From positions 1 through 20,174 of IMG/VR virus record IMGVR_UViG_3300028837_000576: a stretch of 20,174 nucleotides of DNA; one strand, 5' to 3'. This DNA is from a virus. The notes under the pieces are model-generated. The model ran no database searches. It had not been told where the DNA came from and saw nothing but the letters and a program-made list of their open reading frames with translations. The stretch's first letter is position 1. Each line of letters starts with the position of its first letter. Both the position numbers and the translations under genes were made by a program. Shown piece by piece: positions 2,549 through 19,918 of this stretch.

Positions 2549-2965
2549 TTTTTTGAATTAATTGGTGGAAGTCACGAACAAGATAATAAAAAGTTTATGA
2601 AAGGTGACATAATTGAAACTGATGTTAACTTAGTTTCACTATTTCGTGGTAAGTTTAAAAAAGTTTCTAAAGAAGGTGGAATTCCTGCTCCAGAAAGGGT
2701 GCCAAATATACCCACTAAGATGTCTCCTCCCCATCCTAAAGGGTCTGAAGCTGGTGATGGCAAGCCAGCTTCAGATTCTGTTAAAACAATTACAACTCGT
2801 CTTGGCCCAGATGTTACAACTGCTTTTTTAGAAGCTAAAGGAACTGAATTCAAAATTCATAAAGCAGCTGATAATATGTATCACATAGTTGATGGTAACT
2901 CTGATATTATTGGTGGTGCTGGGTTTACTCGTAATGAAGTTTTAATCTACTTGAATAATGCCTAA
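2546..2965 (+). CDS. Small head protein downstream of capsid gene
   Basis: This 139-residue protein starts at the ATG after a GGAAAGGG site. The N-terminal 40 residues (F-x-L-I-G-G-S-H, then K-G-D-x-[IV]-x-[ST], then L-V-S-L-F-R-G-K-F) match a short beta domain often encoded right after phage capsid genes. A Pro/Ser/Gly-rich linker follows (about 45-78). The last 60 residues form a separate small alpha/beta domain ending in a helix. The 3' end overlaps the next gene by 8 nt. Its position is like that of lambda FI or head-completion genes, but I recognise no catalytic motif and the role is unknown beyond likely head association. Confidence 0.65.
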   Translation: MFFELIGGSHEQDNKKFMKGDIIETDVNLVSLFRGKFKKVSKEGGIPAPERVPNIPTKMSPPHPKGSEAGDGKPASDSVKTITTRLGPDVTTAFLEAKGTEFKIHKAADNMYHIVDGNSDIIGGAGFTRNEVLIYLNNA

Positions 2966-3608
2966 ATGGATACCAGAAAAAAAGTGGGATGGTCAAGATG
3001 TGTTTATAATTGGGGGTGGAGATTCTTTAAAAGTATTTGATTGGAATCTTCTTAAACCTTTCTTGACTATTGGGTGTAACGATGCATATGTTCATGGTCA
3101 TGAGATATGTAAGATATGTGTCTTTGGTGATAAAAAATGGTTTAAGAAACATGAGAAAGCACTTGAGCAATATAAAGGAATTTTGTTTACTAATGTTTCT
3201 CAGCTAATAAATACTAAAATTCCTTGGCTTTGGACGATGGATAGGGAACCGAGAGGGTTACATTACAATGCTCTTGGTTGGAATTATAATACTGGATCGG
3301 TAGCTATAAACTTAGCATTATTGTTAGGTGCTATAAAGATATATCTTTTAGGCTTTGATATGCAACTTGGAAAAGAAGGAAATGCCAATTGGCACCATAA
3401 TCCTTTAGATGTACCAGATAGAGCAGTTTATAATAAATTCATTACAGGGTTTAGTAGGATTGCTGAAGATTTAATAAAATTTCCTGGTGTAGAAATATTA
3501 AATGTCACTGATAACAGTAATTTAGATGTATTTCCAAAGATTGGTGTCAAAGAATTCTGGGAGAATAGAAAAAATGAAGTGGATAATATTGATTATCATA
3601 TTGCTTAG
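2958..3608 (+). CDS. DUF115/sialyltransferase-like enzyme (copy 1)
   Basis: The 216-residue protein begins with a Rossmann-type strand and nucleotide loop, FIIGGGDSL (residues 16-24). A CND element follows at 40-42, then N-T-G-S at 111-114 leading into a hydrophobic helix, and the strand IYLLGFDM at 128-135. This order matches DUF115/MptE-like proteins and family GT42 sialyltransferases, which bind CMP- or other nucleotide-activated donors; phage members are often annotated only as morphogenetic proteins. A likely role is sugar transfer to a virion or cell-surface target, but the substrate is not visible. It appears complete, ending in a typical N-L-D-V-F-P-K segment. It overlaps genes on both sides. 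A diverged paralogue lies at 19340. Confidence 0.7.
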   Translation: MPKWIPEKKWDGQDVFIIGGGDSLKVFDWNLLKPFLTIGCNDAYVHGHEICKICVFGDKKWFKKHEKALEQYKGILFTNVSQLINTKIPWLWTMDREPRGLHYNALGWNYNTGSVAINLALLLGAIKIYLLGFDMQLGKEGNANWHHNPLDVPDRAVYNKFITGFSRIAEDLIKFPGVEILNVTDNSNLDVFPKIGVKEFWENRKNEVDNIDYHIA

Positions 3609-5147: not shown

Positions 5148-5500
5148 TGGCTAAACTTGTTAAAATAACTGGGTTAAAAAATGTTATTAGCAATCTTAAA
5201 AGAGCTAATTCAAAGTTGGATATTGGATTTGAAAAGAGGTTGTTAACTGCCGGTTTATTTATTCAAAGAGAAAGTCAAAAAATTGTTCCTGTGGATACTT
5301 CTAATTTAAAAGGTGGGGCAGAAACAAGAAATATTGGTGGTAAAGGGTTTAAAGCTGATGTTATAGTTTTGTATAAAGCTGCTTATGCTGTATTCGTTCA
5401 TGAGAACTTAGATGCAAGACATAAAGAAGGAAAGAGAGCAAAGTTTTTAGAATCTGTTATCAGAGAAAAAAGAGTAGAAATTTTTAAGATGCTTAGATAA
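5147..5500 (+). CDS. HK97 gp10-like neck/minor tail protein
   Basis: This 117-residue protein has the HK97 gp10 pattern: an N-terminal G-L-K-x-V-x-x-x-L-K helix, I-Q-R-E-S-Q-K-I-V-P-V-D-T-S-N-L (about 40-55), a beta segment with A-A-Y-A-V-F-V-H-E (about 83-91), and a basic C-terminal helix A-K-F-L-E-S-V. Members sit at the head-tail interface and normally come right before the tail-terminator gene. Here the terminator-like genes begin only at 9082, so about 3.6 kb of appendage genes separate the two. Start and stop overlap neighbours by one base (TAATG at both ends). Confidence 0.8.
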   Translation: MAKLVKITGLKNVISNLKRANSKLDIGFEKRLLTAGLFIQRESQKIVPVDTSNLKGGAETRNIGGKGFKADVIVLYKAAYAVFVHENLDARHKEGKRAKFLESVIREKRVEIFKMLR

Positions 5501-6159
5501 TGTTAGAAAAAGTATTATATCATAGTGTGTTGTCTGGCCTAGAGAATGATGATCATATTCAATATCTACTCGCCAGTGGGGGACGGGCCTTAGCTGGTGC
5601 TTGGGATATGGGCAGCCAGGGCCTTACCAATGTCAATATTGATTCCGGGACTGTGGATGGGATAACATCTCTTACGGTCGCCAATAACATTGATATCGGA
5701 AATTATACCCTAACAGCCAACGGGCTGACAATAGATGGTATTTTCACAGATGGAACAGCGTCATTAACTGGCGGGGCACTTACCAGTCTGACAAGATTAA
5801 CTGCCACAGGCTCAACCGGTGCGGTTGATACAGCGGCTGATGATGTGGTAGTAGCGATTGGTGGAAACGGTGGGCCGGGTTTAGCCACGTTTGGCAGTGA
5901 GTTGGTTACTGATACCGAAGAAGGTTGGACTTTCGGCGGCGACTGGTCGTGGAATGCCGGAGAGAGTGTGTCCGACTATGTTTATGATGATGACATAGAA
6001 AGTTCTTTGAGTCAGTCGATTTCAGTAGTGCAGGACAAAACATATAGAGTGTCTTTTGATATTGCTAATTGTGATTTAGGCGGTAGTTCTTTAGTTGCAA
6101 TAGGTACAGATGACGAAGGACCTATTGTTTGCAGCAGCGAGATGGAGAAGCCGGTTTAG
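5500..6159 (+). CDS. Virion fibre, N-terminal part (frame ends early)
   Basis: 219 residues. Residues 1-30 contain a D-H-I-Q-Y-L-L-A-S-G-G motif typical of the conserved attachment end of phage fibres. Residues 31-115 are repetitive beta-strand fibre sequence (G-L-T-N-V-N-I-D-S-G-T-V type). From about 125 a carbohydrate-binding-like jelly-roll module begins (E-G-W-T-F-G-G-D-W-S-W, later V-Q-D-K-T-Y-R-V-S-F-D-I) but stops after about 90 residues, short of the usual length. The frame then closes at TAG 6157-6159 while a fibre frame in the -1 phase is already open from 6114. The first 70 nt are AT-rich like the backbone and the rest is GC-richer, so this looks like a recombined fibre with its N-terminal anchor retained. 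Confidence 0.7.
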   Translation: MLEKVLYHSVLSGLENDDHIQYLLASGGRALAGAWDMGSQGLTNVNIDSGTVDGITSLTVANNIDIGNYTLTANGLTIDGIFTDGTASLTGGALTSLTRLTATGSTGAVDTAADDVVVAIGGNGGPGLATFGSELVTDTEEGWTFGGDWSWNAGESVSDYVYDDDIESSLSQSISVVQDKTYRVSFDIANCDLGGSSLVAIGTDDEGPIVCSSEMEKPV

Positions 6160-7754
6160 GGCCAGCCGGTGATGGCGGCGATATAGTATTTACAACAGGA
6201 GCGGGCGGTACAGGAGGGACTGCTACTACCGGCGGCGATGTTATTTTCGACACTTCTAACGGAACGGGTGTGAGAATAGGTTCGGCTGTAGCACCTACGG
6301 TTACTTTGGATGTTACCGGTGACGTTAAGATATCGGAAACATTGGCTGTTGATACCGATACTCTTTATGTAGACCCTGTTAATCATCGGGTGGGCATCGA
6401 GACAACAACTCCGAACAATGCGATACAAGTAGCTGGTTTGATTAACTTTGATGATACGTTGTATAATACGCTGATAGGTAAGGATGCAGGAGCTTCCTTA
6501 ACCACCGGCATTCGCAACTCAGCGATGGGTTATTATGCCCTCCGCTCCAACACCACCGGCAATTACAACTCAGCGATGGGTTATCAGGCTCTCTACTCCA
6601 ACACCACCGGCAATTACAACTCAGCGATGGGTATGTCTGCCCTCTACTCCAACACCACCGGCAATTACAACTCAGCGATGGGTTATGCCGCCCTCAACTA
6701 CAACACCACCGGCATTCGCAACTCAGCGATGGGTTATCAGGCTCTCTACTCCAACACCACCGGCAATTACAACTCAGCAATGGGTTATTATGCCCTCCGC
6801 TACAACACCACCGGCAATTACAACTCAGCGATGGGTTATGCCGCTGATTTTTATGTACCTTCGGCAATTACTACAACTGCAGCGGCTGTAGGAACTGAAC
6901 TGGAAATAGGTAATTATTATTATCGAGTATCTTATGTTTTAGATACCAAAGAAACGGCTTTATCAGCATATAAATCAGTTACTACCACCTCTGGCAATCA
7001 GCAAGTGGATTTATCGGGAATACCTACTTATTCGGGGCCAATGACCTGCACGGCCAGAAAGATTTACAGAAATGAAGTAGGATATAGTGGTGTTTTCTAT
7101 CTTGTAACCATAATATCAGATAATACAACAACTATTTATACCGATTCTATGACAGATGCCACTTTGGTTGGTCAGTCACTTCCTAATGACCCCGATTACG
7201 CAATAATGTTAGGGTATAATGCCAAGGCGTTTGAGTCTAACCAATTAGTCTTAGGTTCGGACGGGACGGGGATTACCCACGCCTATTTAGGTGAGGGGGT
7301 ATATGCCACAACTCCAGTAGGTATCACCTTGCACGCTACGGGAGGACAGGGTACAGATAACGCTGGAGGCGACTTTACTATAGCGGCGGGTATAGGAACG
7401 GGTACGGGAGCGGGGGGCGATATTATTTTTCAGACCGCTGCTGCCGGAGGTGGTTCAGGCGACTCGGCAAATTCCCTTAGCGATAGAGTGAAAATAGCAG
7501 CAGATGGTACTACTTATCTCGGTGACGGCGGGACGACGAATTACACCCAAATATCGAGTACCGGTGATTTATCTTTCGCTGGTTCTGCGGGGTTCTATCC
7601 AAGATTCTTGACCCAGGCCAACGAACCTGCTGCGGGGACAGATGCGACGCAGTGTGATACAAGCGAAATGGTTATTTGGAAAGATAGCGATGATAATAGA
7701 GTATACGCTTGTTTCAACGATGGCGGGACAGTAAAAACAGTGGAACTTATATAG
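6129..7754 (+). CDS. Virion fibre, main part with 17-residue repeats
   Basis: The frame is open from 6114; the only early start codon is TTG 6129, preceded at 8 nt by GAAGGA (6115-6120). That gives 541 residues. Order: Gly/Thr-rich fibre sequence (1-35), beta segments with D-V-T-G-D-V-K-I-S (about 60), six 17-residue repeats (130-231) of the N-S-A-M-G-Y-x-A-L-x-x-N-T-T-G-N-Y type found in phage fibres and YadA-like heads, a fibronectin-like domain (about 245-350), more Gly-rich beta sequence, and a C-terminal tip with W-K-D-S-D-D-N-R-V-Y. It probably forms a trimeric receptor-binding fibre. Continuity with the preceding gene would need a -1 shift; separate coupled translation is the alternative. 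Confidence 0.75.
   Translation: MQQRDGEAGLGPAGDGGDIVFTTGAGGTGGTATTGGDVIFDTSNGTGVRIGSAVAPTVTLDVTGDVKISETLAVDTDTLYVDPVNHRVGIETTTPNNAIQVAGLINFDDTLYNTLIGKDAGASLTTGIRNSAMGYYALRSNTTGNYNSAMGYQALYSNTTGNYNSAMGMSALYSNTTGNYNSAMGYAALNYNTTGIRNSAMGYQALYSNTTGNYNSAMGYYALRYNTTGNYNSAMGYAADFYVPSAITTTAAAVGTELEIGNYYYRVSYVLDTKETALSAYKSVTTTSGNQQVDLSGIPTYSGPMTCTARKIYRNEVGYSGVFYLVTIISDNTTTIYTDSMTDATLVGQSLPNDPDYAIMLGYNAKAFESNQLVLGSDGTGITHAYLGEGVYATTPVGITLHATGGQGTDNAGGDFTIAAGIGTGTGAGGDIIFQTAAAGGGSGDSANSLSDRVKIAADGTTYLGDGGTTNYTQISSTGDLSFAGSAGFYPRFLTQANEPAAGTDATQCDTSEMVIWKDSDDNRVYACFNDGGTVKTVELI
6501..6845 (+). repeat. 51-bp tandem repeats in fibre gene
   Basis: Six full 51-bp units run from 6516 to 6821 with partial units on both sides. 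The segment around ACCACCGGCAATTACAACTC is nearly invariant, whereas codons 6-7 and 10-11 of each unit vary (Tyr/Met, Gln/Tyr/Ser/Ala, Arg/Tyr/Asn, Ser/Tyr). Each unit encodes one 17-residue turn of the fibre. High identity between units favours copy-number change by recombination. Confidence 0.95.
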
Positions 7755-8362: not shown

Positions 8363-9082
8363 ATGGCTAATGAAGGAGTTATAAAACTTACACATCCTGT
8401 TGCAAGTTTAGGGACTATAACTTGTAAGATATTAAAACCAGATGATACGGTACGAGATGGACAAACTGCTATAGCTCTTACTGATAGTGGCCATGATAAC
8501 TTGTATTCTAATGCAGGTGCTGTGACTATTGAAGCTGGTGATTCTGTTTTGTACTATCAAGATGGAGTTAACATAACTGGCAAAGAATATCAAGAGGAAG
8601 CAACAGTAGTAAATGAGGATGATTGTAAAGCTGATGTTAGTGCTTTAGCTACAGGAGTAGATTTGGCTACTCATAATGATAGTCTTCTTGCTGTTGATGG
8701 AAAAGTGGATGCCATTCAAGGTGATGTTACAGATATAAAAACTGAAACAGATAAATTGGATGAAATGATAGAAGAAGATAGTGCTGGTAATAAATTTACA
8801 GAAAAAGCGCTAGAAGAAGCCCCAACAGCAGAAATGGATGCTACTGAATTGGCTGCTGCTATGAAAGCCATAACAGGTATTACAGAAGGTGGGACTTGGA
8901 CGTGGGAAAAGATAATGAAAATAACAACTGCTTTTATGGCAGGTGATTGGAGATTAGATGCTACAGGAACTAAACAGGAATTGATGGATGCTGAAGATGG
9001 GTCAACAGTAATACTTGAACAAGATATAACTCGTTCTCCATCAGCAGGAAATAAGTATAGAGATATTTTGGTGAAAATCTAA
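8363..9082 (+). CDS. Coiled-coil fibre-like virion protein
   Basis: This 239-residue protein has an N-terminal beta domain (1-82), then a heptad-like segment (about 90-138: A-L-A-T-G-V-D, then D-G-K-V-D-A-I-Q-G-D-V-T-D-I-K) likely to form a trimeric coiled coil, then K-F-T-E-K-A-L-E-E-A-P, a helical part and a small C-terminal domain containing G-D-W-R-L-D-A-T-G-T-K-Q. I recognise this combination from phage fibre or baseplate-peripheral proteins that join domains through a coiled coil. Composition is AT-rich like the backbone, unlike the large fibre upstream, so it appears native to this phage. It overlaps the next start by one base. Confidence 0.65.
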   Translation: MANEGVIKLTHPVASLGTITCKILKPDDTVRDGQTAIALTDSGHDNLYSNAGAVTIEAGDSVLYYQDGVNITGKEYQEEATVVNEDDCKADVSALATGVDLATHNDSLLAVDGKVDAIQGDVTDIKTETDKLDEMIEEDSAGNKFTEKALEEAPTAEMDATELAAAMKAITGITEGGTWTWEKIMKITTAFMAGDWRLDATGTKQELMDAEDGSTVILEQDITRSPSAGNKYRDILVKI

Positions 9083-9603
9083 TGTCATATAATTTGATTG
9101 CTAACATTATTTCTTCTGTTACAGGTGGACTTTTTAATTTCACCAGAGTTGTTACAGCTGAAGATAAGTTGCTTATATCTCCAGCTTCTATTTTAGCAGC
9201 TTATATAAGATCAGAAGAAACTATGTCAGATCCTGATGATGATGATGATTGGCCTTTATATATTTCTTATTTACCTGATGAAGTTAAAACTAATGCCGGA
9301 GCTATTTATAATACTCAAGGGGTTAAAGACGGTAGATTAATGGAAGGGTCTGTTATTCAGTATCATGGGATACAAATTAAAATTCGTTCAGATGCACACG
9401 ATACTGGATGGGCTAAAATTGAAGATATTTCAAATGATCTTGATTTAATTAACAGAGAAGAAATTAAAGTTGATTCTGAGGACTATCTGATTCATAATGT
9501 TAATAGAATTGGTTCAATTATTTCACTTGGCACTGAACCAGGGACAAAGAAAAGGCAATTATTTACAATTAATTTTTTAGTTACTTTAAGTAGGGTAGTT
9601 TGA
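9082..9603 (+). CDS. Tail-terminator-like protein, copy 1
   Basis: 173 residues. From L30 on it is homologous to the next gene: shared blocks include L-L-I-S-P-A-S-I-L, W-P-L-Y-I-S-Y-L-P-D, N-T-Q-G-V-K-D-G-R-L-M and G-T-K-K-R-Q-L-F. By hand alignment about 87 of 143 positions are identical. The family, with a strand-rich core and an I-R-S...T-G-W-A-K motif, occupies the tail-terminator/minor-capsid place just before the tail tube in many siphophages. Terminators form a hexamer capping the tube and binding the head. This copy has a 28-residue N-terminal extension and an acidic D5 run (51-55). Which copy acts as the terminator is not visible. Confidence 0.65.
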   Translation: MSYNLIANIISSVTGGLFNFTRVVTAEDKLLISPASILAAYIRSEETMSDPDDDDDWPLYISYLPDEVKTNAGAIYNTQGVKDGRLMEGSVIQYHGIQIKIRSDAHDTGWAKIEDISNDLDLINREEIKVDSEDYLIHNVNRIGSIISLGTEPGTKKRQLFTINFLVTLSRVV

Positions 9604-10037
9604 TGCTTTTAATTTCACCAGCTTCTATTTTAACAGCTTATATAAGAGATCAAGGATTAATGTCAGATCCTGCTGATGGTAATACTTGGCCTCTGTATAT
9701 TTCTTATCTTCCTGATGGTGTTGAAAATAATGCTGGTTCTGTTAATAATACTCAAGGAGTTAAAGATGGTAGATTAATGTTAGGCACAGTTATTCAGCAT
9801 CATGGTTTAGAACTAATAATTAGAAGCACTGTACATAATACTGGTTGGGCAAAGATGGAAGCTATAGCAACTAATATAGATTCTATGCTTAGAACTACTA
9901 TTACAGTAGATGGAGAAGATTATGAAATACATAGTATAAAAAGAGATGGTATTATTGAGACTTTAGGCTCTGAATCAGGAACAAAGAAAAGACAATTGTT
10001 TAAAAGTAGATTTTTAATGACAGTTAAAATAATTTAA
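9603..10037 (+). CDS. Tail-terminator-like protein, copy 2
   Basis: A 144-residue paralogue of the preceding gene. ATG 9603 is preferred to TTG 9600; AGTAGGG lies 8 nt upstream and the start overlaps the previous TGA by one base (TGATG). The protein begins at M-L-L-I-S-P-A-S, so it lacks the N-terminal extension of copy 1 and has the more usual length. Its place directly before the tail-tube gene is the canonical one for a terminator. The tandem arrangement and about 60% identity point to a gene duplication followed by divergence, perhaps splitting head-facing and tube-facing roles as in lambda gpZ and gpU; that split is inference. Confidence 0.7.
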   Translation: MLLISPASILTAYIRDQGLMSDPADGNTWPLYISYLPDGVENNAGSVNNTQGVKDGRLMLGTVIQHHGLELIIRSTVHNTGWAKMEAIATNIDSMLRTTITVDGEDYEIHSIKRDGIIETLGSESGTKKRQLFKSRFLMTVKII

Positions 10038-10523: not shown

Positions 10524-10877
10524 GAAAGTCTAAGATTTGAAACAAGTTTAAAAGAAGTGCCAGTAACATTAGTTGATGCTAATGGCGTTGAAAGACAATG
10601 TACATTAAAAGAATTAACTGGTGCTCAAAGATCGATTTACAATGAAAGTTTTAAGATCAAGATACAAATGGATGGTGACGAAGCTAAAGCAGTTCCTGGT
10701 GAAGATTTTAAAACTTTTCCTGCTGAAGAATTTTTATCAATGTGCCTTTATGATGAAAATGGTGTACAAATAAGTAAAGAAGTAATTGGGGCTTATCCGC
10801 CTAAGAAATTAAGTATAGAAGAAAAAACACGACGTTCTAAAAGATTTTGGTCTAATTTAGTAGGAATGAATAAATAA
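10521..10877 (+). CDS. Probable tail assembly chaperone
   Basis: 118 residues, lying between tube and tape-measure genes, where siphophages encode tail assembly chaperones (lambda G/GT). An N-terminal beta part includes V-P-V-T-L-V-D-A-N-G (about 13-22); then come L-K-E-L-T-G-A-Q-R and an acidic, helical remainder ending in a basic K-T-R-R-S-K-R-F-W helix. Unlike lambda there is no second frame: the frames behind it close quickly and the stop overlaps the tape-measure ATG (TAATG). So if it is the chaperone, it works as a single product. Function is from position; sequence support is weak. Confidence 0.55.
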   Translation: MESLRFETSLKEVPVTLVDANGVERQCTLKELTGAQRSIYNESFKIKIQMDGDEAKAVPGEDFKTFPAEEFLSMCLYDENGVQISKEVIGAYPPKKLSIEEKTRRSKRFWSNLVGMNK

Positions 10878-13354
10878 TGACTGCTCCAACTTTAGATCTT
10901 GGTAATCTATTAGTACATCTTAATGCAGATATATCTCAGTTTGAAAAGAAGATGAGGAAAGCTGAACAGCGGATGAAAAAAGCTGCTGACAACATGACTC
11001 ATCTTGGAAGGCAGATGACTTTGAGGGTCACTTTGCCCATAGTAGCAATGGGAGCTGCTTCTGTTAAAGCATTTGCTTCTTTTGATGATGCTATGATTAA
11101 ATCATTAGCGATCATGAGCGACATTACACCTCAATTAAGAAAAGAAATGGAGGATTTAGCTCTATCTATTTCTAATGAAGGAATTACTTCTGCAACAGAT
11201 TTAGGTAAGTCATATTTTTTCTTAGCTTCAGCTGGTCTTGATGCTCAGCAATCTATGGCTGCTTTAGGAGCGGTAGAAGCATTTGCTGTAGCAGGAGCTT
11301 TTGATATGGCTACCGCAACTGATTTAGCTACAGATGCTCAAAGTGCTTTAGGTTTGACTGTAAAAGATGCGCAACAAAATTTAGTGAATATGACAAGAGT
11401 TACAGATGCTTTAATAGGTGCTAACACTTTAGCTAATGCTTCTACTAAACAATTTGCTTTATCTTTAACTTCTCAAGCTGGCCCAGCTATGAAAGCATAT
11501 GGTATTGAATTAGAAGAAGGCCTTGCAGTCTTAGCTGCTTATGCCGATCAAGGTATTAAAGCTCAAAATTCTGGAAATCTTTTTAGTAGAATGCTTCGTT
11601 TGATGACCAAGGGATTTTTAGATAATGAGAAAGTTTGGAAACGATTCAAAATAGATATATTTGAGGCTAGTGGTAAATTAAAACCTATGGCTACAATTGT
11701 AGGTGATTTATCAAATGCCTTAGGAGAAATGTCTACTAAGCAAAAAATCTCTACTTTAGCTATGCTGGGGTTTCAGGCTCGTTCTCAGCAAGCTATTCTC
11801 CCTTTGTTGGGCCTTCAGGATAGAATAGCAGGATATAATGAAGCTCTTTTAAAAATGAAAGGTATAACTGAGGAAGTCTATCAAAAACAATTAAAATCTT
11901 TTTCTTCTCAGATGAAAATTTTATGGAATAATATTAAAAATGCGGGCATAGTAATTGGTAAAATTTTAGCTCCAACACTTTTATCATTAAATGAGAAAAT
12001 TAAGAGTTTAGCAATAGGATGGAGAGGCCTTTCTTTAAACACTCAAAAATTAATTATAGGATTTGCTTTGCTCGCTGCTTCAGTTGGGCCAGTTTTATTA
12101 GTTTTTGGCTCATTTATTAAATTATTATTATTAGTTAAGATCGCTGCTCTAGCAGGTGCTGCTTCAATAGGAATTCTTATGGGTTCTATACTTGCACTAT
12201 ATGCAGCAATTGGAAGTTTTGCTTTAGGAACATATCTTGCAAATGAGTATAAGTGGGTTGCAGAAGCGGGTAATAAAACAATAATTTCCTTATGGAAAGG
12301 CTGGGAGCGATTAAAAAATGTAGTTGAATTATCGGGTGCTGCTATAAAATTAATTTGGAGTGGAGTAACTAAATCTATTATCAATTCTTTTTCTTTTGTT
12401 ATCGTGAAAGTAGCTCAGGGTTTAAGCAAACTTGAAGACATGATAAATAAATTACCATTTATAGAAAGTATAAATCTAGGTGCTGCTGCTGTAGAAAAAT
12501 GGGCAGCCTCTATGACAGAAGGAATGGTTACCCCTCAAGTTGAATTTAGAAAAGCTGTTGAAGAAGCAAATAAAAAATTGGAAGACCAATTAGCTATGAT
12601 CGACAGCATATCAGCAGAGGCTCAAAAAGAAATAGATATTAAATTTGCTCGCAAGAAAGATGGAACTTCTTCATTAGATGAAATGATTCAAAAGATAAAA
12701 GAAATATTAGTTGACATTGACAATGATGTACAAGAAAAAACAAAAAATTGGCAAGGATGGTTTAATGATTGGGCTGGTAGTGCTTTAGATACTTTTAGTA
12801 ATATGAGTCAGATAGCCAGCGATGCGATGGATAGTGTAGCTGATTCATTGACTGATTTGGTAATGAGAGGTAAGGCTGATTTTAATACTTTGGCTAATGC
12901 TGTTTTAGAAGATATAACTAGAATGATAATCAAAGCACAACTAGCAAGAGCTTTAATGTCTTTTATGCCAGGAATAATTCCTACTGCACCAGGGGTGACT
13001 ACTCCGGTCACAGTAGAACCTGTTGCAGTTCAACATGCTGGTGGAATGATAGGACAAGTAAATTCTTCTAGATTTGTTGCTTCTAATATTTTTAATAATG
13101 CTCCAAGATTTCATAATGGTGGGTTAGCTGCTAATGAAGTGCCTATTATAGCAGAAAAAGGCGAAAGGATTTTGAGTAAGAAGGAAGTGGCAGAGGGTGT
13201 GGGTAGAGATAAGAGGAGTTCAACAGTAAACATAACAGTTCAAGCAATAGATGCTCAGGGTACTTATCAATTTTTGAATAATAATAAAAGAGCTATTGCT
13301 TCTATGCTTCAAGGTACAATACAAAATAATCATCCTAGTAGAAGGGTTAAATAA
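10877..13354 (+). CDS. Tail tape measure protein
   Basis: 825 residues. Residues 20-45 form a charged helix. Residues 60-260 match the TP901-type tape-measure core (A-S-F-D-D-A-M, then D-L-A-L-S-I-S, then long A/G/L helices with F-F-L-A-S-A-G and N-L-F-S-R-M-L). Residues about 390-455 are strongly hydrophobic, able to span a membrane during DNA ejection. Residues about 628-695 resemble the lambda gpH C-terminal domain (W-F-N-D-W-A-G-S-A-L-D, then F-N-T-L-A-N-A-V-L-E-D-I). A Gly-rich tail follows with E-V-P-I-I-A-E-K-G-E-R-I-L-S. At the usual 0.15 nm per residue the tail would be roughly 120 nm. It overlaps the upstream gene by one base. Confidence 0.92.
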   Translation: MTAPTLDLGNLLVHLNADISQFEKKMRKAEQRMKKAADNMTHLGRQMTLRVTLPIVAMGAASVKAFASFDDAMIKSLAIMSDITPQLRKEMEDLALSISNEGITSATDLGKSYFFLASAGLDAQQSMAALGAVEAFAVAGAFDMATATDLATDAQSALGLTVKDAQQNLVNMTRVTDALIGANTLANASTKQFALSLTSQAGPAMKAYGIELEEGLAVLAAYADQGIKAQNSGNLFSRMLRLMTKGFLDNEKVWKRFKIDIFEASGKLKPMATIVGDLSNALGEMSTKQKISTLAMLGFQARSQQAILPLLGLQDRIAGYNEALLKMKGITEEVYQKQLKSFSSQMKILWNNIKNAGIVIGKILAPTLLSLNEKIKSLAIGWRGLSLNTQKLIIGFALLAASVGPVLLVFGSFIKLLLLVKIAALAGAASIGILMGSILALYAAIGSFALGTYLANEYKWVAEAGNKTIISLWKGWERLKNVVELSGAAIKLIWSGVTKSIINSFSFVIVKVAQGLSKLEDMINKLPFIESINLGAAAVEKWAASMTEGMVTPQVEFRKAVEEANKKLEDQLAMIDSISAEAQKEIDIKFARKKDGTSSLDEMIQKIKEILVDIDNDVQEKTKNWQGWFNDWAGSALDTFSNMSQIASDAMDSVADSLTDLVMRGKADFNTLANAVLEDITRMIIKAQLARALMSFMPGIIPTAPGVTTPVTVEPVAVQHAGGMIGQVNSSRFVASNIFNNAPRFHNGGLAANEVPIIAEKGERILSKKEVAEGVGRDKRSSTVNITVQAIDAQGTYQFLNNNKRAIASMLQGTIQNNHPSRRVK

Positions 13355-13357
13355 TAA

Positions 13358-13999
13358 ATGAATTTAGTTATTAATGATTTTGTTGGGGATGCTGCTTATG
13401 GAAGTTTTGGAGAGCAGGCTCCTTTGATAAAATCTTTTAATTGGTTAACTGATTTAGTAAGTTTTGATTCTGGTAAAGAACAAAGAAATCAAATACTTGA
13501 ACAACCAATAAGGGAATGGCCTATTAATTGGCAGTGGATGGATGAAGATGCAAGAGATAAACTTATAGAATTATTTCAAAGAACGAAAGGACGTTATGCC
13601 ACTTTTTTGTATAAAGATGAAGAAGATTATGCTTGCACTGTAGCAGATTGTAGCATCACAGCAATTGCAGCACAAACAGATTTTCAGTTGATAAAAACTT
13701 ATTATCCTGGTGAAACAGAAGAATGGAGTGAGAATAGAAAAGATATTGCTCCTAGTGCTGTATTTCAACCATTAGTATTTTTAGATGATGTTTATCAAAC
13801 TGAAGGAGTTGATTACACTTTAGATGATACAACTGGAATTGTTATTTTTGGTGCTGCTCCCGGTGCTGGTGTAATTTTTACAGCAGCTTATCAGTTTTAT
13901 TTTAGAGTGCGTTTTGAAGATGATATCCACACAGATATAGAACATCAAAAAGGATATTGGAGTTATGAAAATTTAAAATTGGTTGAGGTGCTAAGTTGA
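13358..13999 (+). CDS. DUF2460 distal tail protein
   Basis: A 213-residue protein in the distal-tail position after the tape measure. The DUF2460 pattern is visible: L-I-K-S-F-N-W-L-T-D near 22-31, a region with R-E-W-P-I-N-W-Q-W-M near 51-60, a segment with F-L-Y-K-D-E-E-D near 82-89, and beta strands in the C-terminal half (G-V-D-Y-T-L-D, then F-Y-F-R-V-R-F-E-D-D). In the Rhodobacter gene transfer agent the equivalent gene forms the distal tail ring joining tube and tip. A 3-nt gap separates it from the tape measure, and it overlaps the next gene by 4 nt (TTGA). It is the first of four genes with RcGTA tail-tip order. Confidence 0.85.
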   Translation: MNLVINDFVGDAAYGSFGEQAPLIKSFNWLTDLVSFDSGKEQRNQILEQPIREWPINWQWMDEDARDKLIELFQRTKGRYATFLYKDEEDYACTVADCSITAIAAQTDFQLIKTYYPGETEEWSENRKDIAPSAVFQPLVFLDDVYQTEGVDYTLDDTTGIVIFGAAPGAGVIFTAAYQFYFRVRFEDDIHTDIEHQKGYWSYENLKLVEVLS

Positions 14000-15054
14000 G
14001 ATCAGTAAATGCTACGTTTTCATCGGCTATTGCTGAGGGTTCAGTAAAAGTAGCTGAACTTTATATTTTAGAATTGTCAGATGGATCTAAATATTATTAC
14101 ACTTCCCACTCTAAAAATATAATTTGGGATGCTGGGTCAAATACTTATTTGTCTATAGTTATTAGTAGAGGCCCAGTTCAATATTCTAATAACTTTGAAT
14201 CTGATACTGTCCAAGTTATAATAGGCAATATTTCAGGAGATTTGGTTGCTGATGTTCAAGCAAATATTCTTGACGGCTGTAAAGTAACTATAAAGAGGGT
14301 TCTTTGGGATAATAGTTATGCCGCTGACTTGGAAATAATTTTATTTGTTGGTTATGCTGATGTTGAATTTGATAGAACTGTTTTAAACTTAAATTGTAGA
14401 CCATTAGAAGATTCTTTGAATTCTAAAATACCACGACATACTTTTCAAGAACCTTGTAATAATTCTTTATTTGATGATACTTGTACTTTAGTACAATCAG
14501 ATCATCAATACTCGGGAACAGCTACAGGAGGAACGGCTTTAACTCTTATTGACACGACCAGAGGTTCTGTTTATAAAGTAGATTTTGATAATGGAGATGG
14601 GGATAATCCTGTTGAGGTTGGTGATGCTTTATCCGGTGATGTAGGTGCCGGAACTGGGGTTTGTGTTCAAATAGTCTACTTAACAGCAACTACAGGTACT
14701 ATATGGTATGTAGAACAGGTGGGTGTTCAATATGTAAATGATGAGGTGTTGACAGGCGGTGGAAATACGATAACAGTAAATGGTACACCTGCGGAAGATA
14801 CTAATCTATATATTATTGGCGAACTTGAAATGACTGGTGGTAATAATTCAGGTCAACGCAGGCCAATTCTATCAGACGGTAGTAATACTATTACGGTTCT
14901 ATGGCCATTTCCAAATGTTGTTGCAAATGGTGATACTTATAATCTTTTTCCTGGTTGCGATAAAACAGCGGAGACTTGTGATTTGACTTTTGATAATGAT
15001 GAGAATTTTAGAGGTTTTTTATATATTCCAAGAGTAGAAGAGACGGTGATGTAA
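13996..15054 (+). CDS. DUF2163 tail tip/hub protein with inserted domain
   Basis: 352 residues; typical DUF2163 proteins are about 290. TTG 13996 is taken as the start because GAGGTG lies 5 nt upstream, there is no nearby ATG, and M-R-S-V-N-A-T-F fits the family. Residues 1-165 are the N-terminal beta domain (V-A-E-L-Y-I-L-E-L-S-D-G-S-K-Y-Y-Y-T). The C-terminal signature G-C-D-K-T-A-E-T-C...F-R-G-F-L-Y-I-P (about 319-345) is clear. Between about 190 and 265 lies extra beta sequence (V-Y-K-V-D-F-D-N-G-D-G-D to N-T-I-T-V-N-G) that I do not expect in the family and that resembles small repeat modules of phage fibres. The protein probably forms part of the hub below the DUF2460 ring. Confidence 0.85.
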   Translation: MRSVNATFSSAIAEGSVKVAELYILELSDGSKYYYTSHSKNIIWDAGSNTYLSIVISRGPVQYSNNFESDTVQVIIGNISGDLVADVQANILDGCKVTIKRVLWDNSYAADLEIILFVGYADVEFDRTVLNLNCRPLEDSLNSKIPRHTFQEPCNNSLFDDTCTLVQSDHQYSGTATGGTALTLIDTTRGSVYKVDFDNGDGDNPVEVGDALSGDVGAGTGVCVQIVYLTATTGTIWYVEQVGVQYVNDEVLTGGGNTITVNGTPAEDTNLYIIGELEMTGGNNSGQRRPILSDGSNTITVLWPFPNVVANGDTYNLFPGCDKTAETCDLTFDNDENFRGFLYIPRVEETVM

Positions 15055-15485
15055 TGTCTTTGAATGAAGATATAGTTAAAGAAGCATTGACTTGGATTGA
15101 TACTCCATACCAACATCGATCTGCTACGAAGCAAGGATGCGATTGTACTGGTTTGATTATTGGCGTTATGCAGACTCTTGGTTATATGAAAGATTATAAA
15201 TTGAGGAATTATCCAAAAGACTGGAATTTACATTCAATGGCGGATAATTATATTGTTGATGAAATTGAAAAATTTACAGATAAAATATTTGATATGAGAA
15301 GTGGAGATATTGTATTATTTAGATTTGGAAAATGTATTGCTCATGCTGGTATTTTATTAGAGAATAAATTGTTTATTCATAGCCATGTTAAAGCCAAGAA
15401 ATGTAATGTATCATTGATGAAAAACAACGAATGGTCAAAACGTTTTGTTGGTGCTTATCGTTTTAATTTGAAGAAAGTTGCTTGA
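15054..15485 (+). CDS. NlpC/P60 cell-wall peptidase, tail tip
   Basis: 143 residues, a complete compact NlpC/P60 domain. The catalytic cysteine is Cys31 in C-D-C-T-G-L, the histidine is His97 in I-A-H-A-G-I-L, and a third polar residue is probably His109 in F-I-H-S. D-T-P-Y (16-19) and R-S-G-D-I-V-L-F (82-89) are family landmarks. Such enzymes cut peptide stems of peptidoglycan (gamma-D-Glu to diamino acid bond). Located between DUF2163 and the hub gene, it corresponds to the RcGTA tail peptidase, so it likely opens the wall during DNA entry rather than at lysis. Both ends overlap neighbours by one base (TAATG, TGATG). Confidence 0.92.
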   Translation: MSLNEDIVKEALTWIDTPYQHRSATKQGCDCTGLIIGVMQTLGYMKDYKLRNYPKDWNLHSMADNYIVDEIEKFTDKIFDMRSGDIVLFRFGKCIAHAGILLENKLFIHSHVKAKKCNVSLMKNNEWSKRFVGAYRFNLKKVA

Positions 15486-18400
15486 TGGCAAGTAATGGAT
15501 TAATGAAATTAGGGTTAGCTATAGGATTAGCTGTAGTCGCTCCTCATGTTGGGTTGACTATGGGGGTTGGCTTTTTAGTTGGTTCTGTTTTAGGCTCAAT
15601 GATATTTCCTGCTGATTCAGATGTTGGTATGCCTCAAGCGGGGACATACCCCACTCAAAATTCAAATAAAGGAATTCCTGTGCCTATAGTTTATGGCACT
15701 ACGAGAGTTGCTGGTAACATAATTTGGATGGGTGATTTACAAGCATATACAGTAAAACATTCTTCTGGTGGCGGTAAAGGCGGTGGAGATCAAACAACCA
15801 GCTCAGAGACTCGTTATCGCCGATCATTTTTGATAGGTATATGTGAAGGTATTGCGGATATTCGCAGAGCGTGGAAGGGAAAAACTGAAATATCAGTTGG
15901 CGATTTCACAAGATTCAATGGTTTTGAGAATAGTGGAATTGCCACCTTAACCGGAGAAGATTATTCTGATTATCCTAATATGTGTTGTGCCTTTTTTGAG
16001 GATTATGAATTAGGGAACAGTCAAGCTATTCCTAATTTTGTTTTTGAGGTCTGTTCGCAATGGGTTAGTTATACTGATATTGTTATTGGCTTAGGACTCA
16101 GTGCAAGACTTTATGACCAGGAATATAATCTTTTAGCCACAAAAAGTGACCCGCCATACAATACGGTTCGCCAAATACATCAAGGACCAGATGGATTTTA
16201 TTATTCATCAAGCGGCCCGGATGGAGCTAATAAATCTATCCCTGTAAAATTGGACCGTGATTTTAACGTTGTTGCAGGCTGGCCAGCCTGGGACGGCTGG
16301 ATCGTAGATAGTGCTCATTCAATTACAGGAATTAAACCTACGTTAGATGGTGAATATGTTTATGTTTTAACAACACGTCATGCAATCAGTGGATATGGTA
16401 AATTAGTTAAATTAACTACATCAACCGGCGATTTGGTGTGGGAGAAGAACCACGGCTTATCTCCGCCAAGGGATATTGGACTGACAGCAGATGATTCCAT
16501 TGTTATCGGCGGTCACACTACGGATGGTCTTGGAAATAGTTATCCGATAGTTTATTCGGGAGCAACTGGTGACGTTGTAACAGACTGGTCTGATTATGAT
16601 GCTGATAGAGTAAATAGCTCAGATGCTTTTTACAGAATAATTGTTGTTGATTCACTGGAGCAATGGTTTACTTGTGGTACTCGTAATGGTGCTCCGTCCT
16701 GGGTTGCCAACGGCGACTGTGGAACTGTATGTCGTTACCCGTTTAGTCCTGATGATATAGACGAATACTGGATAGCGGACCCCTTAAATGGAAAAAGATG
16801 TGTTGATATAGCCTATAAGGATGGGTATTTGTATGGCTGTTTTTGGGCTGGAACTTACAACGGTCAGACGGTAACGGTTCTTAAGATGGATGCGACTGAT
16901 GGTTCAGTCATTGCAGCCGTAAGGCCCGGCAATGGAACAGCCGAGAGTATTTGCATCAGCCGAGACCATAAGCTGCTTGTGGTAGGTGTAGATAGTGGCA
17001 GCAATCATAAATTCTGGATTTTGGATCCAGATGATTTATCCACATTGAAAACACACGACGGGGCCAGCGTCTCCTACGCAAGGGTAGAGCAGATTCCCGA
17101 CTGGATAGCATTTGGGCCAGCGACCGATGAAAACCCATCTTATATTATTAGAAACCTTTTGACAAATGCTCGTTATGGTTTAGGCTTGATAGAAGCTGAT
17201 TCTTTGAACACTGATTCTTTTGACAGTGTGGCTGAATATTGTGAACTAAATAATCTAAAAATATCTCTGGCAATAAATGAACAAAAGCCAATTTGGGACT
17301 GGATTGATTATATCTGCTCTCATTTTGGAGGATTTAGGTATAGGAGTGGGGGAAAAATTTCGATAGGAGTATTCAAAGAAGAAAGTTCAGTAGCTACTTT
17401 AACGCAGGATAATCTTGTAGTGTCAAGCGATGAGCCTCCAGTACAAATAAGAAAAAGAAGATATACCGAAACTTATAACCGGATAGAAATACAATGGACT
17501 GATAGGGACGCTGATTACGATGCTTCTGTAGCCGTAGCAAATGATGAAGTAGACCAGAGAATAACAGGCCAAATGAGAAAAAAGACTATAAACCTTGCTG
17601 GTATAACTGATGCAAATTATGCCCAGAAAATGGCTTATAGAATGTTAATAGAGTCCCTTTATCGACATTCATTTTATTCTTTCATATTAACATATAAAGA
17701 TATGTTATTAGAGGTGAATGATGTTTGCACTCTGAACGATGGGATTCTTTTATCAAGTGAAAAGATAAGAATCACTTCTGTTTCGGAAGATAAGGATGGT
17801 AGGGGTTTAATTATAGAAGCTATTGAAGATGGAAGCAATCTTTATTCGAGTATAGCTTATGGTTCACAGCAAACCGGCCGCACGCCTGATGCTGCGGTTA
17901 CTTTGGCTAATGCCAGAGTTATGTTTAGAGAAGATATAAATTTGCCATTGCTTCATCTGTCAATGGTTCCTGGCAATGCTTCGGTTAATGGTTATAATAT
18001 TTATCGTAGTTATAATGATTCAAGTTATGATTTTATAGGCAGAACTACAATTGATGGTATAACAGGAGGTGACAGTAATTCACGAGGAACTTTAAGTAAT
18101 ATTTTGCCTGCATATACAGCGACGGTTTATCGATCACAAGAGACTCTTTTAGTAGATATTGGAACTCTTACTGATTTAGATACAGCTATTTCTGATGATA
18201 CTTTTTTCAATGGTAGAAAAATACTTCGGATCGGCGATGAAATAATAGGTTATCATAATGCTGTAGAAACGGCTACGACGGGTATTTGGGAGATTACTGG
18301 TCTAATGAGAGGGTTGCATAATACCCTACCGGTTGCTCATACAATAGGAGATGTTGTTGAAACACTTGATATTGATTTTACATATATTTTACAGGATTCA

Positions 18401-18880
18401 GATATTGGTAAGACTTTATATTTTAAGGCTGTGGTTTTTTATGCTAATCAAGTTCAAAGTATTTCTGATGTCACTGCTTATAGTACTACAATAGCAGGAA
18501 ACAGCTTTAAACCACTACCAGTATCTCTTATGAGAATAAATAGTAGGGAAGGATTGGGTACTTATAAGACTGATGATGTTACTATTGATTGGTATTTTTG
18601 TAGCAAGTCTTCGGGGTTTGGCAGGGGTGGATATGGAAATGCTCTTTGGGGTTCTTATACCAAAGACCCACTTCTTAGTAATGTCAAAATTGAGTTAGAA
18701 GAAGAAGATGGGACTCCTATAACAAATGAGATAGTAACTGTAGATTCTACAGGCGAGCCAAATGAATATGAAATAACATCTACTATAAGAGATGGAAAGA
18801 ATCCTGTGAATGTTAAAATAACCCCAGCCAGTCATTTATTGTCAGATGAAACAAGAGAAATATTAATAGAAAATGTATAG
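15485..18880 (+). CDS. Large tail hub/host-specificity protein (RcGTA megatron-like)
   Basis: 1131 residues from ATG 15485 (TTG 15482 rejected). Residues 5-40 are hydrophobic and Gly-rich. Residues 60-190 are the usual N-terminal hub region (P-V-P-I-V-Y-G, a Gly/Lys loop, then S-E-T-R-Y-R-R-S-F-L-I-G-I-C-E-G and I-P-N-F-V-F-E-V). The family continues at about 548 with D-E-N-P-S-Y-I-I-R-N-L-L-T-N-A-R-Y-G-L-G-L and a phage-tail_3-like region to about 780. In between lies a foreign-looking beta-propeller (194-545). The C-terminal 350 residues contain fibronectin-like and beta domains (N-G-Y-N-I-Y-R-S-Y-N, about 838-847). It is expected to form the tail tip that contacts the host. It follows the peptidase by a TGATG overlap. 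Confidence 0.88.
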   Translation: MASNGLMKLGLAIGLAVVAPHVGLTMGVGFLVGSVLGSMIFPADSDVGMPQAGTYPTQNSNKGIPVPIVYGTTRVAGNIIWMGDLQAYTVKHSSGGGKGGGDQTTSSETRYRRSFLIGICEGIADIRRAWKGKTEISVGDFTRFNGFENSGIATLTGEDYSDYPNMCCAFFEDYELGNSQAIPNFVFEVCSQWVSYTDIVIGLGLSARLYDQEYNLLATKSDPPYNTVRQIHQGPDGFYYSSSGPDGANKSIPVKLDRDFNVVAGWPAWDGWIVDSAHSITGIKPTLDGEYVYVLTTRHAISGYGKLVKLTTSTGDLVWEKNHGLSPPRDIGLTADDSIVIGGHTTDGLGNSYPIVYSGATGDVVTDWSDYDADRVNSSDAFYRIIVVDSLEQWFTCGTRNGAPSWVANGDCGTVCRYPFSPDDIDEYWIADPLNGKRCVDIAYKDGYLYGCFWAGTYNGQTVTVLKMDATDGSVIAAVRPGNGTAESICISRDHKLLVVGVDSGSNHKFWILDPDDLSTLKTHDGASVSYARVEQIPDWIAFGPATDENPSYIIRNLLTNARYGLGLIEADSLNTDSFDSVAEYCELNNLKISLAINEQKPIWDWIDYICSHFGGFRYRSGGKISIGVFKEESSVATLTQDNLVVSSDEPPVQIRKRRYTETYNRIEIQWTDRDADYDASVAVANDEVDQRITGQMRKKTINLAGITDANYAQKMAYRMLIESLYRHSFYSFILTYKDMLLEVNDVCTLNDGILLSSEKIRITSVSEDKDGRGLIIEAIEDGSNLYSSIAYGSQQTGRTPDAAVTLANARVMFREDINLPLLHLSMVPGNASVNGYNIYRSYNDSSYDFIGRTTIDGITGGDSNSRGTLSNILPAYTATVYRSQETLLVDIGTLTDLDTAISDDTFFNGRKILRIGDEIIGYHNAVETATTGIWEITGLMRGLHNTLPVAHTIGDVVETLDIDFTYILQDSDIGKTLYFKAVVFYANQVQSISDVTAYSTTIAGNSFKPLPVSLMRINSREGLGTYKTDDVTIDWYFCSKSSGFGRGGYGNALWGSYTKDPLLSNVKIELEEEDGTPITNEIVTVDSTGEPNEYEITSTIRDGKNPVNVKITPASHLLSDETREILIENV
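16064..17107 (+). other. Beta-propeller-like domain inserted in hub gene
   Basis: About 350 residues (194-541 of the hub protein) read as successive blade-like units of 40-55 residues. Examples are G-P-D-G-F-Y-Y-S-S-S, L-D-G-E-Y-V-Y-V-L-T-T-R, T-A-D-D-S-I-V-I-G-G, K-D-G-Y-L-Y-G-C-F-W-A-G and S-R-D-H-K-L-L-V-V-G-V-D, each followed by a strand ending in a D/T-G-x-x turn. This is typical of PQQ- or YVTN-type propellers. The surrounding hub sequence joins naturally if it is removed. The DNA is GC-richer than its flanks (34 of 60 G/C at 17041-17100 against 18 of 60 at 17221-17280). A receptor- or glycan-binding role is inferred. Confidence 0.75.
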
Positions 18881-19118: not shown

Positions 19119-19343
19119 ATGGCAAGAGCAAAAGAAAAAGTAATCTCACTTTTGGGTTCTGTTACTATAACCCTTGATTCAGTAGCAGGTACAGAATTTG
19201 CAGCGTACACAACTCCTACGGGTAAGAAAATGATTCCTGTGCTTTGTATCTTAAAAGATTTTGATGAAGCAGTTGATGAAGCGGTTATAACCGCAGGGAT
19301 AGCAGGTGGAGATTGTGATGAATTTGTAGGTAATAGAACTTGA
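19119..19343 (+). CDS. Small beta-rich phage protein, probably truncated
   Basis: 74 residues from ATG 19119, with GAAAGGA 5-11 nt upstream; upstream in-frame codons lie inside the previous gene and are not needed. The sequence reads as the N-terminal part of a phage virion domain: V-I-S-L-L-G-S-V-T-I-T-L-D-S-V, Y-T-T-P-T-G-K-K-M-I-P, then G-G-D-C-D-E-F-V-G-N. My impression from similar proteins is that they continue for another 40-60 residues. Here the frame stops just after V-G-N-R-T, exactly where the DUF115-like gene begins (overlap TTGA). Truncation by insertion of the downstream gene is therefore likely, though the short form may still fold. Confidence 0.55.
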   Translation: MARAKEKVISLLGSVTITLDSVAGTEFAAYTTPTGKKMIPVLCILKDFDEAVDEAVITAGIAGGDCDEFVGNRT

Positions 19344-19918
19344 ATGATGATATATATATTATAGGTGGTGGACCAAGTCTTAGAGATTTTGACTTTAGTC
19401 AACTTAAACATTTAGACACTATAGCAGTAAATGTTGCTGCTTTAGATGTTCCAAATCCTACATATTGTATAACTTCAGATTCAGGCCAATTTCGTAAACT
19501 TTGTGAAGGATATTACAATAATGTAAAAACAACTTGGGTTGTTGTAACTAATCCAGATCACGCGACTATGAAATGGAAGAACGGAAGATTTCAACATGTG
19601 AGCTCTAATTTTGTTTACAATTTATTTGTACCAAATTTATTGATAAGAAATGCGGGTACAGAGGGAATTGGATTCACATTCAATGATTTTAGAACAGGAT
19701 GTAACAGTGGATTTTGTGCATTACAGTTAGCAGTTTTACTTCGTTATAAAAGGATTCATCTACTAGGAATTGATTTAATTACTGGCAAACATTATCACGA
19801 TAGATATGGTGGGTTAGAAATTAATCCTTCAAGAATTGAAGAATATTATAAAAATTTTGTTTTAGCATTTGACATCTTAAAAGAGAAAAACAGATATAGA
19901 AGTTATCTCACATTCTAA
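19340..19918 (+). CDS. DUF115/sialyltransferase-like enzyme (copy 2), frameshifted
   Basis: 192 residues from TTG 19340; no in-frame ATG is near and the start overlaps the previous TGA. It shares the framework of the gene at 2958: I-Y-I-I-G-G-G-P-S-L (5-14), N-S-G-F-C-A-L-Q-L-A-V-L-L (122-134), H-L-L-G-I-D-L (140-146), and H-Y-H-D-R-Y-G-G (151-158), a His-rich segment seen in DUF115/GT42-like proteins. The last residues (N-R-Y-R-S-Y-L-T-F) do not fit the family. The +1 frame from 19890 gives a good family ending instead, so a one-base insertion in the A5 run at 19886-19890 probably truncates this gene. Sugar-transfer activity is inferred from fold resemblance only. Confidence 0.65.
   Translation: MNDDIYIIGGGPSLRDFDFSQLKHLDTIAVNVAALDVPNPTYCITSDSGQFRKLCEGYYNNVKTTWVVVTNPDHATMKWKNGRFQHVSSNFVYNLFVPNLLIRNAGTEGIGFTFNDFRTGCNSGFCALQLAVLLRYKRIHLLGIDLITGKHYHDRYGGLEINPSRIEEYYKNFVLAFDILKEKNRYRSYLTF

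Follow-up and report, generated by a model that had tools for sequence, protein, structure and literature searches.

The closest described counterparts of the tail protein analysed here are the megatron proteins of RcGTA (Rcc01698) and of phage vB_DshS-R4C (R4C). The RcGTA megatron comprises an iris/penetration domain (residues 1 to 46), an adhesin-like domain (47 to 229), a peripheral domain (230 to 744), a central domain (745 to 984), and a fibre-binding domain (985 to 1304) (PMC7296036). The peripheral domain of the R4C megatron (212 to 481 and 630 to 903) is mannanase-like, and residues 482 to 629 form a CBM11-like domain (PMC10276861). In both systems, peripheral parts have been proposed to touch sugar or the envelope, after which the iris opens (PMC7296036, PMC10276861). 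Decorated tail tips are also known from lactic acid bacteria phages, in whose evolved Dit and Tal proteins a conserved scaffold, Dit or gp27-like, hosts inserted carbohydrate-binding modules (CBMs) (PMC7291167), and propellers occur in receptor-binding and baseplate proteins such as the phi11 receptor-binding protein (RBP), PRD1 P2, and PhiKZ gp131C (PMC4901313).

We analysed a 20,174-nucleotide stretch of viral DNA (the window; IMG/VR record IMGVR_UViG_3300028837_000576). It carries genes for a DUF2460 protein, a gp84-like hub protein, an NlpC/P60 protein, and a megatron-like central tail protein (below, the hub) in the GTA order (Table 1), and RcGTA and R4C share both this upstream gene order and the architecture of the hub (iris, adhesin-like, peripheral, central, and fibre-binding parts). 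The listed open reading frame (ORF) of the hub starts with TTG, but the ATG at 15485, which overlaps the upstream stop codon, is the likelier start. Searches with the hub matched Phage-tail_3 (residues 600 to 768; E value of 1.7e-24) and Rcc01698_C (residues 869 to 957), both of which are GTA megatron domains, and gave a partial match to NCBIfam GTA_megatron (2.7e-38). The tail family phrog_1101 (8.7e-64) aligned hub residues 59 to 1041 with profile positions 37 to 710, leaving about 310 residues extra in the hub. Residues 1 to 51 take the position of the RcGTA iris/penetration domain and, by analogy, may share its function.

Table 1. Positions of the hub gene, its parts, and neighbouring tail genes in the window
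Feature	Coordinates	Strand	Basis
Tape measure protein	10877..13354	+	phrog_1533 2.9e-66
DUF2460 protein; RcGTA distal tail protein (g12) position by gene order	13358..13999	+	Pfam 1.1e-32
RcGTA hub (g13)-like protein, gp84-N/BR0599	13996..15054	+	Pfam 2.5e-21 and 9.2e-18
NlpC/P60 tail peptidase, fixed upstream neighbour	15054..15485	+	Pfam 1.4e-14
Central tail (megatron-like hub) protein gene	15482..18880	+	1132 aa; Pfam, NCBIfam, phrog_1101 matches
Hydrophobic N-terminus, aa 1-51	15482..15634	+	NF048004 alignment, 2-191 to 1-201
Adhesin-like domain, aa 52-190, C-terminal IPNFVFEV	15635..16051	+	~53% identity to six clade members; model vs 6TBA chain 8A from residue 64
Exchangeable insert in peripheral-domain slot, aa 191-540, predicted seven-bladed beta-propeller	16052..17101	+	AF2 model, VIA-align/Foldseek matches, weak PQQ_2
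Blade 1, approximate, three strands	16079..16147	+	Model strands
Blade 2, approximate	16175..16279	+	Model strands
Blade 3, approximate, includes weak PQQ_2/BamB match	16316..16453	+	Model strands; PQQ_2 at aa ~273-323
Blade 4, approximate	16475..16585	+	Model strands
Blade 5, low confidence, incomplete in model	16625..16738	+	pLDDT 31-54
Blade 6, approximate	16793..16921	+	Model strands
Blade 7, approximate	16931..17053	+	Model strands
Central (gp27-like) domain, aa 541-790	17102..17851	+	Phage-tail_3 at 17279-17785; alignment with RcGTA megatron reaches residue 983
C-terminal part, aa 791-1132	17852..18877	+	Rcc01698_C at 18086-18352 (PF23666 5.5e-8); fibre-binding region in RcGTA

Several other features of the window were recorded. 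The open-ended first ORF contains a perfect 15-bp tandem repeat of 5.6 copies (520-603; EPETK). Two paralogues (2958-3608 and 19340-19918) are phrog_4603-like, a family named alpha-2,3-sialyltransferase, and weakly MptE-like; one related locus, L007, has a longer island of glycosyltransferase- and methyltransferase-looking genes downstream of its hub. Within the tail module, two adjacent similar genes (9082-9603 and 9600-10037; xLISPASILxAYIR...SDPxDxxxWPLYISYLPD) appear to be a tandem duplication.

The first-pass annotation of the window had placed an insert of about 350 residues between conserved parts of the hub, at 16064-17107. Both the insert and, within a few codons, its range (Table 1) were confirmed by the gap in the phrog_1101 alignment and by comparison with relatives that lack the insert. 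The motifs IPNFVFEV (residues 183 to 190; 16028-16051) and DENPSYIIRNLL (residues 549 to 560; 17126-17161) are 361 residues apart in the window, versus 13 to 14 residues in Acinetobacter phages Effie, vB_AbaSI_5, and MD-2021a and in about 80 IMG/VR loci. A profile of the insert-less relatives ended at ORF residue 198 and restarted at 533 (this ORF numbering is 5 higher). In Xanthomonas phage DoCa8 and Burkholderia phage AH2, the central domain is preceded by only about 190 to 220 residues, which leaves too little space for such an insert. Homologous hubs without the insert therefore do exist, as had been anticipated, and they form one clade in a tree of the joined flanks. Two of the Acinetobacter phages with an empty slot have genes annotated as sialidase and SGNH hydrolase beside the hub, between the gp84-like gene and the NlpC/P60 gene (L006, 428-2182; L002, 370-2523).

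The insert had also been described as GC-richer than its flanks, which holds in the window (GC of 0.440, versus 0.399 on the N-terminal side and 0.356 on the C-terminal side; GC3 of 0.345 versus 0.230 in the flanks, Fisher P value of 8e-5). Of 383 stretches of this size in the window, 39 had at least this GC, the richest being fibre/spike-like genes at 5500-7750. As a sign of an acquired domain, however, the enrichment did not stand: among 11 relatives, insert GC was mostly equal to or below that of the flanks, and we therefore dropped it as a general mark of acquisition. The fibre/spike-like gene, the GC maximum of the window (up to 0.49), occupies two overlapping frames (5500-6159 and 6129-7754), a possible frame break, and contains a 51-bp tandem repeat of 6.6 copies with NTTGNYNSAMGYxAL units (6501-6839).

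To place the insert structurally, hub residues 52 to 800 were modelled with AF2 from a 39-row alignment of related loci, excluding the insert rows of L090, L091, and L275, which MAFFT had misplaced. Residues 8 to 744 of the model aligned with residues 64 to 983 of the RcGTA megatron (6TBA_8A; Z score of 27.4, 2.5 Å over 340 residues), with the adhesin-like and central domain folds in the same order as in the GTA megatron, and the model also aligned with residues 64 to 1123 of the R4C megatron (8GTC_M; Z score of 25.3). The insert therefore occupies the peripheral-domain slot, which in the GTA and R4C megatrons is filled by a peripheral domain of 500 to 690 residues. In R4C, a GTA_TIM match (2e-115) ends at residue 878, ahead of Phage-tail_3 at 950; the window hub had no match to GTA_TIM (PF13547) at an E value of ≤1. 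It scored 131.5 bits in two partial stretches against the NF048004 equivalog, whose curated cutoff is 800 bits. The window hub thus lies outside the strict GTA megatron equivalog but has the same architecture, and the hub structure and gene order bear out the earlier description of the tail as GTA-type in the sense of GTA/R4C-like. The accompanying claim that the flanks are normally nearly contiguous applies to one branch, the Acinetobacter-type and similar phages; it fails for GTA and R4C, where the slot is filled, and for the window's own clade, where it always is. What fills it differs: R4C has a GTA_TIM barrel and, in addition, a CBM11-like domain, the window a predicted propeller, and relatives of the window GLUG β-helices.

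In the model, most of the hub had pLDDT values above 90, whereas the insert, covered by only six or seven sequences of the alignment, ranged from about 31 to 82 (mean of about 58). The modelled insert is all-β and closed, with approximately seven groups of four strands. Its best structural match (model residues 144 to 495) was quinohemoprotein amine dehydrogenase (QHNDH; 1jju_B; Z score of 19.4, 297 of 337 residues aligned), followed by E. coli YncE and an archaeal YVTN propeller (1l0q), each with a Z score of 17.7; there were also matches to methylamine dehydrogenase and nitrous oxide reductase. We take all five to be seven-bladed propellers, and overall such matches had Z scores of 17 to 19 over 264 to 297 residues. 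With Foldseek, E values of 1e-6 to 1e-7 were obtained for BtuG, BamB, YncE, and WD40 propellers. A model built from the single sequence (pLDDT of 32.2) was discarded.

Sequence searches were less informative. PQQ_2 matched the insert with 19.0 bits (E value of 0.0012), under its cutoff of 27.6, and no curated family matched above its own cutoff. Self-hhalign detected no internal repeat (best off-diagonal E value of 0.17), so that the "repeated blade-like strands" of the first-pass annotation are present as blades in the predicted structure but not as a repeat in the sequence. Compared with the PDB by phmmer, the insert and three further inserts gave only chance matches, as did a profile built from the four. 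A tblastn search of the insert against phages yielded nothing at an E value of 0.1, and in 294 planctomycete genomes the insert found marginal matches only (best, 4.8e-4). Since the sequence offers no more than a subthreshold PQQ_2 match and no repeat, the propeller assignment rests on the model, its structural matches, and an NHL propeller in the slot of a relative (see below). The moderate pLDDT, the lack of a significant sequence family, and the single-sequence pLDDT of 32 would also suit some other β-rich repeat fold. Such a fold is improbable given the similarity to seven-bladed propellers over most of the insert, the all-β four-strand periodicity, and the relative's NHL propeller. We therefore predict, with moderate confidence, that residues 191 to 540 form a closed seven-bladed propeller, within the six to eight blades initially envisaged.

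Viral scans with the hub or the insert as a single protein found no relatives, and a close group was collected by using the N-terminal and central domains of the hub as scan queries and by searching planctomycete genomes. The flanks of this group are about 50% identical to those of the window, and the slot is filled in every member of the window's own clade. Eight members carry GLUG-type β-helices (L088, L092, L093, L094, L095, L107, L172, and L248), supported by Pfam Glug in L093 (2.4e-18), L094 (2.8e-6), and L107 (7.6e-5), by an M26 N-terminal region in L172, and by significant similarity to other GLUG-type inserts in L092 and L095; L248 was assigned by eye. Ten have propeller-like inserts (L090, L091, L096, L256, L269, L272, L274, L275, L276, and L277), a label that in most cases comes from reading the strand pattern without a significant match; weak propeller-motif matches were seen in L091 (SBBP) and L276 (Kelch). 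In L256, the insert is clearly recognizable as an NHL propeller (Pfam, 3.5e-15; PDB NHL domains, 8.3e-35). Of the relatives, one lies in a Sedimentisphaerales MAG and one in a planctomycete chromosome; L256 is a prophage on a 1.9-Mb contig of a genome from the same phylum as that MAG, and genes for an integrase, a CI-type repressor, and NlpC/P60 lie close by. At L267, the planctomycete prophage whose hub carries an NHL propeller, a neighbouring tail gene encodes a second one (5254-6294; Pfam, 8.7e-11). Slot modules of about 400 residues in L104, L111, and L120 had no Pfam match. More distantly, the tail proteins of Erythrobacter phages ZS04 and R6L have a foreign vWA domain directly before the same central domain, as the window has its insert, but they lack the megatron N-terminus of the window hub.

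In ten further loci (L097, L100, L101, L109, L112 to L115, L119, and L135), the slot is where the hub is split: the N-terminal domain is a separate ORF that ends right past the site. This gene of about 200 residues (L097, 2355-2949; L101, 4350-4941; L112, 3864-4503; L119, 6935-7526; L135, 6890-7532) ends past PNFSFEV and is followed by a gene of 420 to 800 residues, which had no Pfam match in the three loci checked (L097, L112, and L119), and then by the central-domain gene. The hub genes of five relatives contain frame breaks that may reflect assembly errors, decay, or recoding (L090, in-frame TAG at 5458; L092, 7921-7988; L095, 6872-7214; L275, ~617; L276, 6809-6833).

Across the close group, identity to the window is about 53% for the flanks, versus about 19% for the inserts. 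Among the propeller carriers used for modelling, the five nearest were 39 to 60% identical to the window in the adhesin-like domain and 40 to 53% in the central domain, versus 16 to 22% in the insert; the more distant L096 had 26, 28, and 19%, respectively. Propeller and GLUG carriers were intermixed on the tree of either flank. On a tree of both flanks with the insert columns removed, L274 (propeller) and L107 (GLUG) were sisters with 100/100 support. Many forks of these trees were weakly supported. AU tests rejected a single clade of propeller carriers (p-AU of 3.4e-9) and a single clade of GLUG carriers (p-AU of 1.5e-11). The mixed flank trees and the rejection of both one-clade trees indicate that slot contents switched at least twice in the close group. 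The insert of the window thus represents one state of a repeatedly exchanged slot rather than a single acquisition event. That the insert diverges far more quickly than the flanks might instead suggest that a diversity-generating retroelement targets it and makes it hypervariable. This is hardly credible, since whole folds differ among relatives, a change that point-mutating retroelements do not cause, and no reverse transcriptase was found in the records of eight relatives (up to 92 kb; possibly incomplete). In the literature outside most subscription journals, we found no description of exchange at the megatron peripheral slot, and the sole match for GLUG with phage tails concerned Bacillus carbohydrases. 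What is new is that the slot of the nearest phages is always filled while its contents keep changing (propeller, GLUG, and vWA).

We consider it likely (probability of roughly 0.7) that the hub is a megatron-type siphophage tail protein whose slot-borne propeller is an exchangeable module facing outward for contact with the host surface. By analogy with RcGTA and R4C, three megatron copies would ring the tail tip with their peripheral domains outward. The propeller would then be this phage's version of the outer contact, most likely touching a glycan or surface protein of the host during attachment, and it would bind or process a polymer or protein at the surface before the tip or iris opens. 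Retaining the hub scaffold while swapping the whole module (propeller, GLUG β-helix, vWA, TIM barrel, or none) could tune host recognition.

The position of the insert and the precedents make receptor or glycan binding plausible. It sits before the central gp27-like domain, and an inserted module in a gp27-like scaffold is a feature shared with decorated hubs of the Tal type. Evolved Tal and Dit proteins differ in that they carry small CBMs of recurring fold in phages of Gram-positive bacteria, whereas the window group has folds of different classes, 340 to 520 residues long, in one slot; no CBM family matched the window insert. The propellers of phi11, PRD1, and PhiKZ belong to separate RBP, spike, or gp131 proteins, whereas that of the window lies inside the central hub.

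Alternatively, the module might act enzymatically, cleaving or modifying polysaccharide at the surface; the TIM barrel of R4C, which is mannanase-like, with GTA_TIM in the same slot, and the propeller fold of capsule-degrading phage endosialidases (PMC4901313) would point that way. We regard this as unlikely: no glycosidase or lyase family matched the window insert, and inserts of the same type, only about 16 to 22% identical to it, have no visible conserved motifs, whereas an active site would be conserved. A passive role in the baseplate, as a spacer or stability module making no direct contact with the host, would fit the fact that no functional residue could be picked out and that insert-less hubs are common (about 80 related phages). 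That reading is distinctly unlikely, as wholesale swapping of unrelated folds on a conserved scaffold is the pattern of surface-exposed recognition parts. Recognition is favoured over both a spacer and a conserved enzyme because the scaffold is conserved while unrelated folds replace each other. The hub slot is therefore a modular site that probably serves contact with the host surface.

We give even odds to the broader proposal that whole adhesin-like folds are generally exchanged at the peripheral slot of megatron hubs, and that an undescribed siphophage group, at least partly of Planctomycetota, thereby alters what its tail tip contacts while keeping the DNA-delivery core fixed. In the usual view, a siphophage hub is a conserved core and variation resides in fibres and spikes; here, one slot of the core swaps unrelated folds between close relatives. 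The peripheral domain of GTA and R4C is thereby linked to a wider exchange system, the slot offers a place to seek host-range determinants in uncultured phages, and its contents are the first candidate adhesion modules for phages of Planctomycetota.
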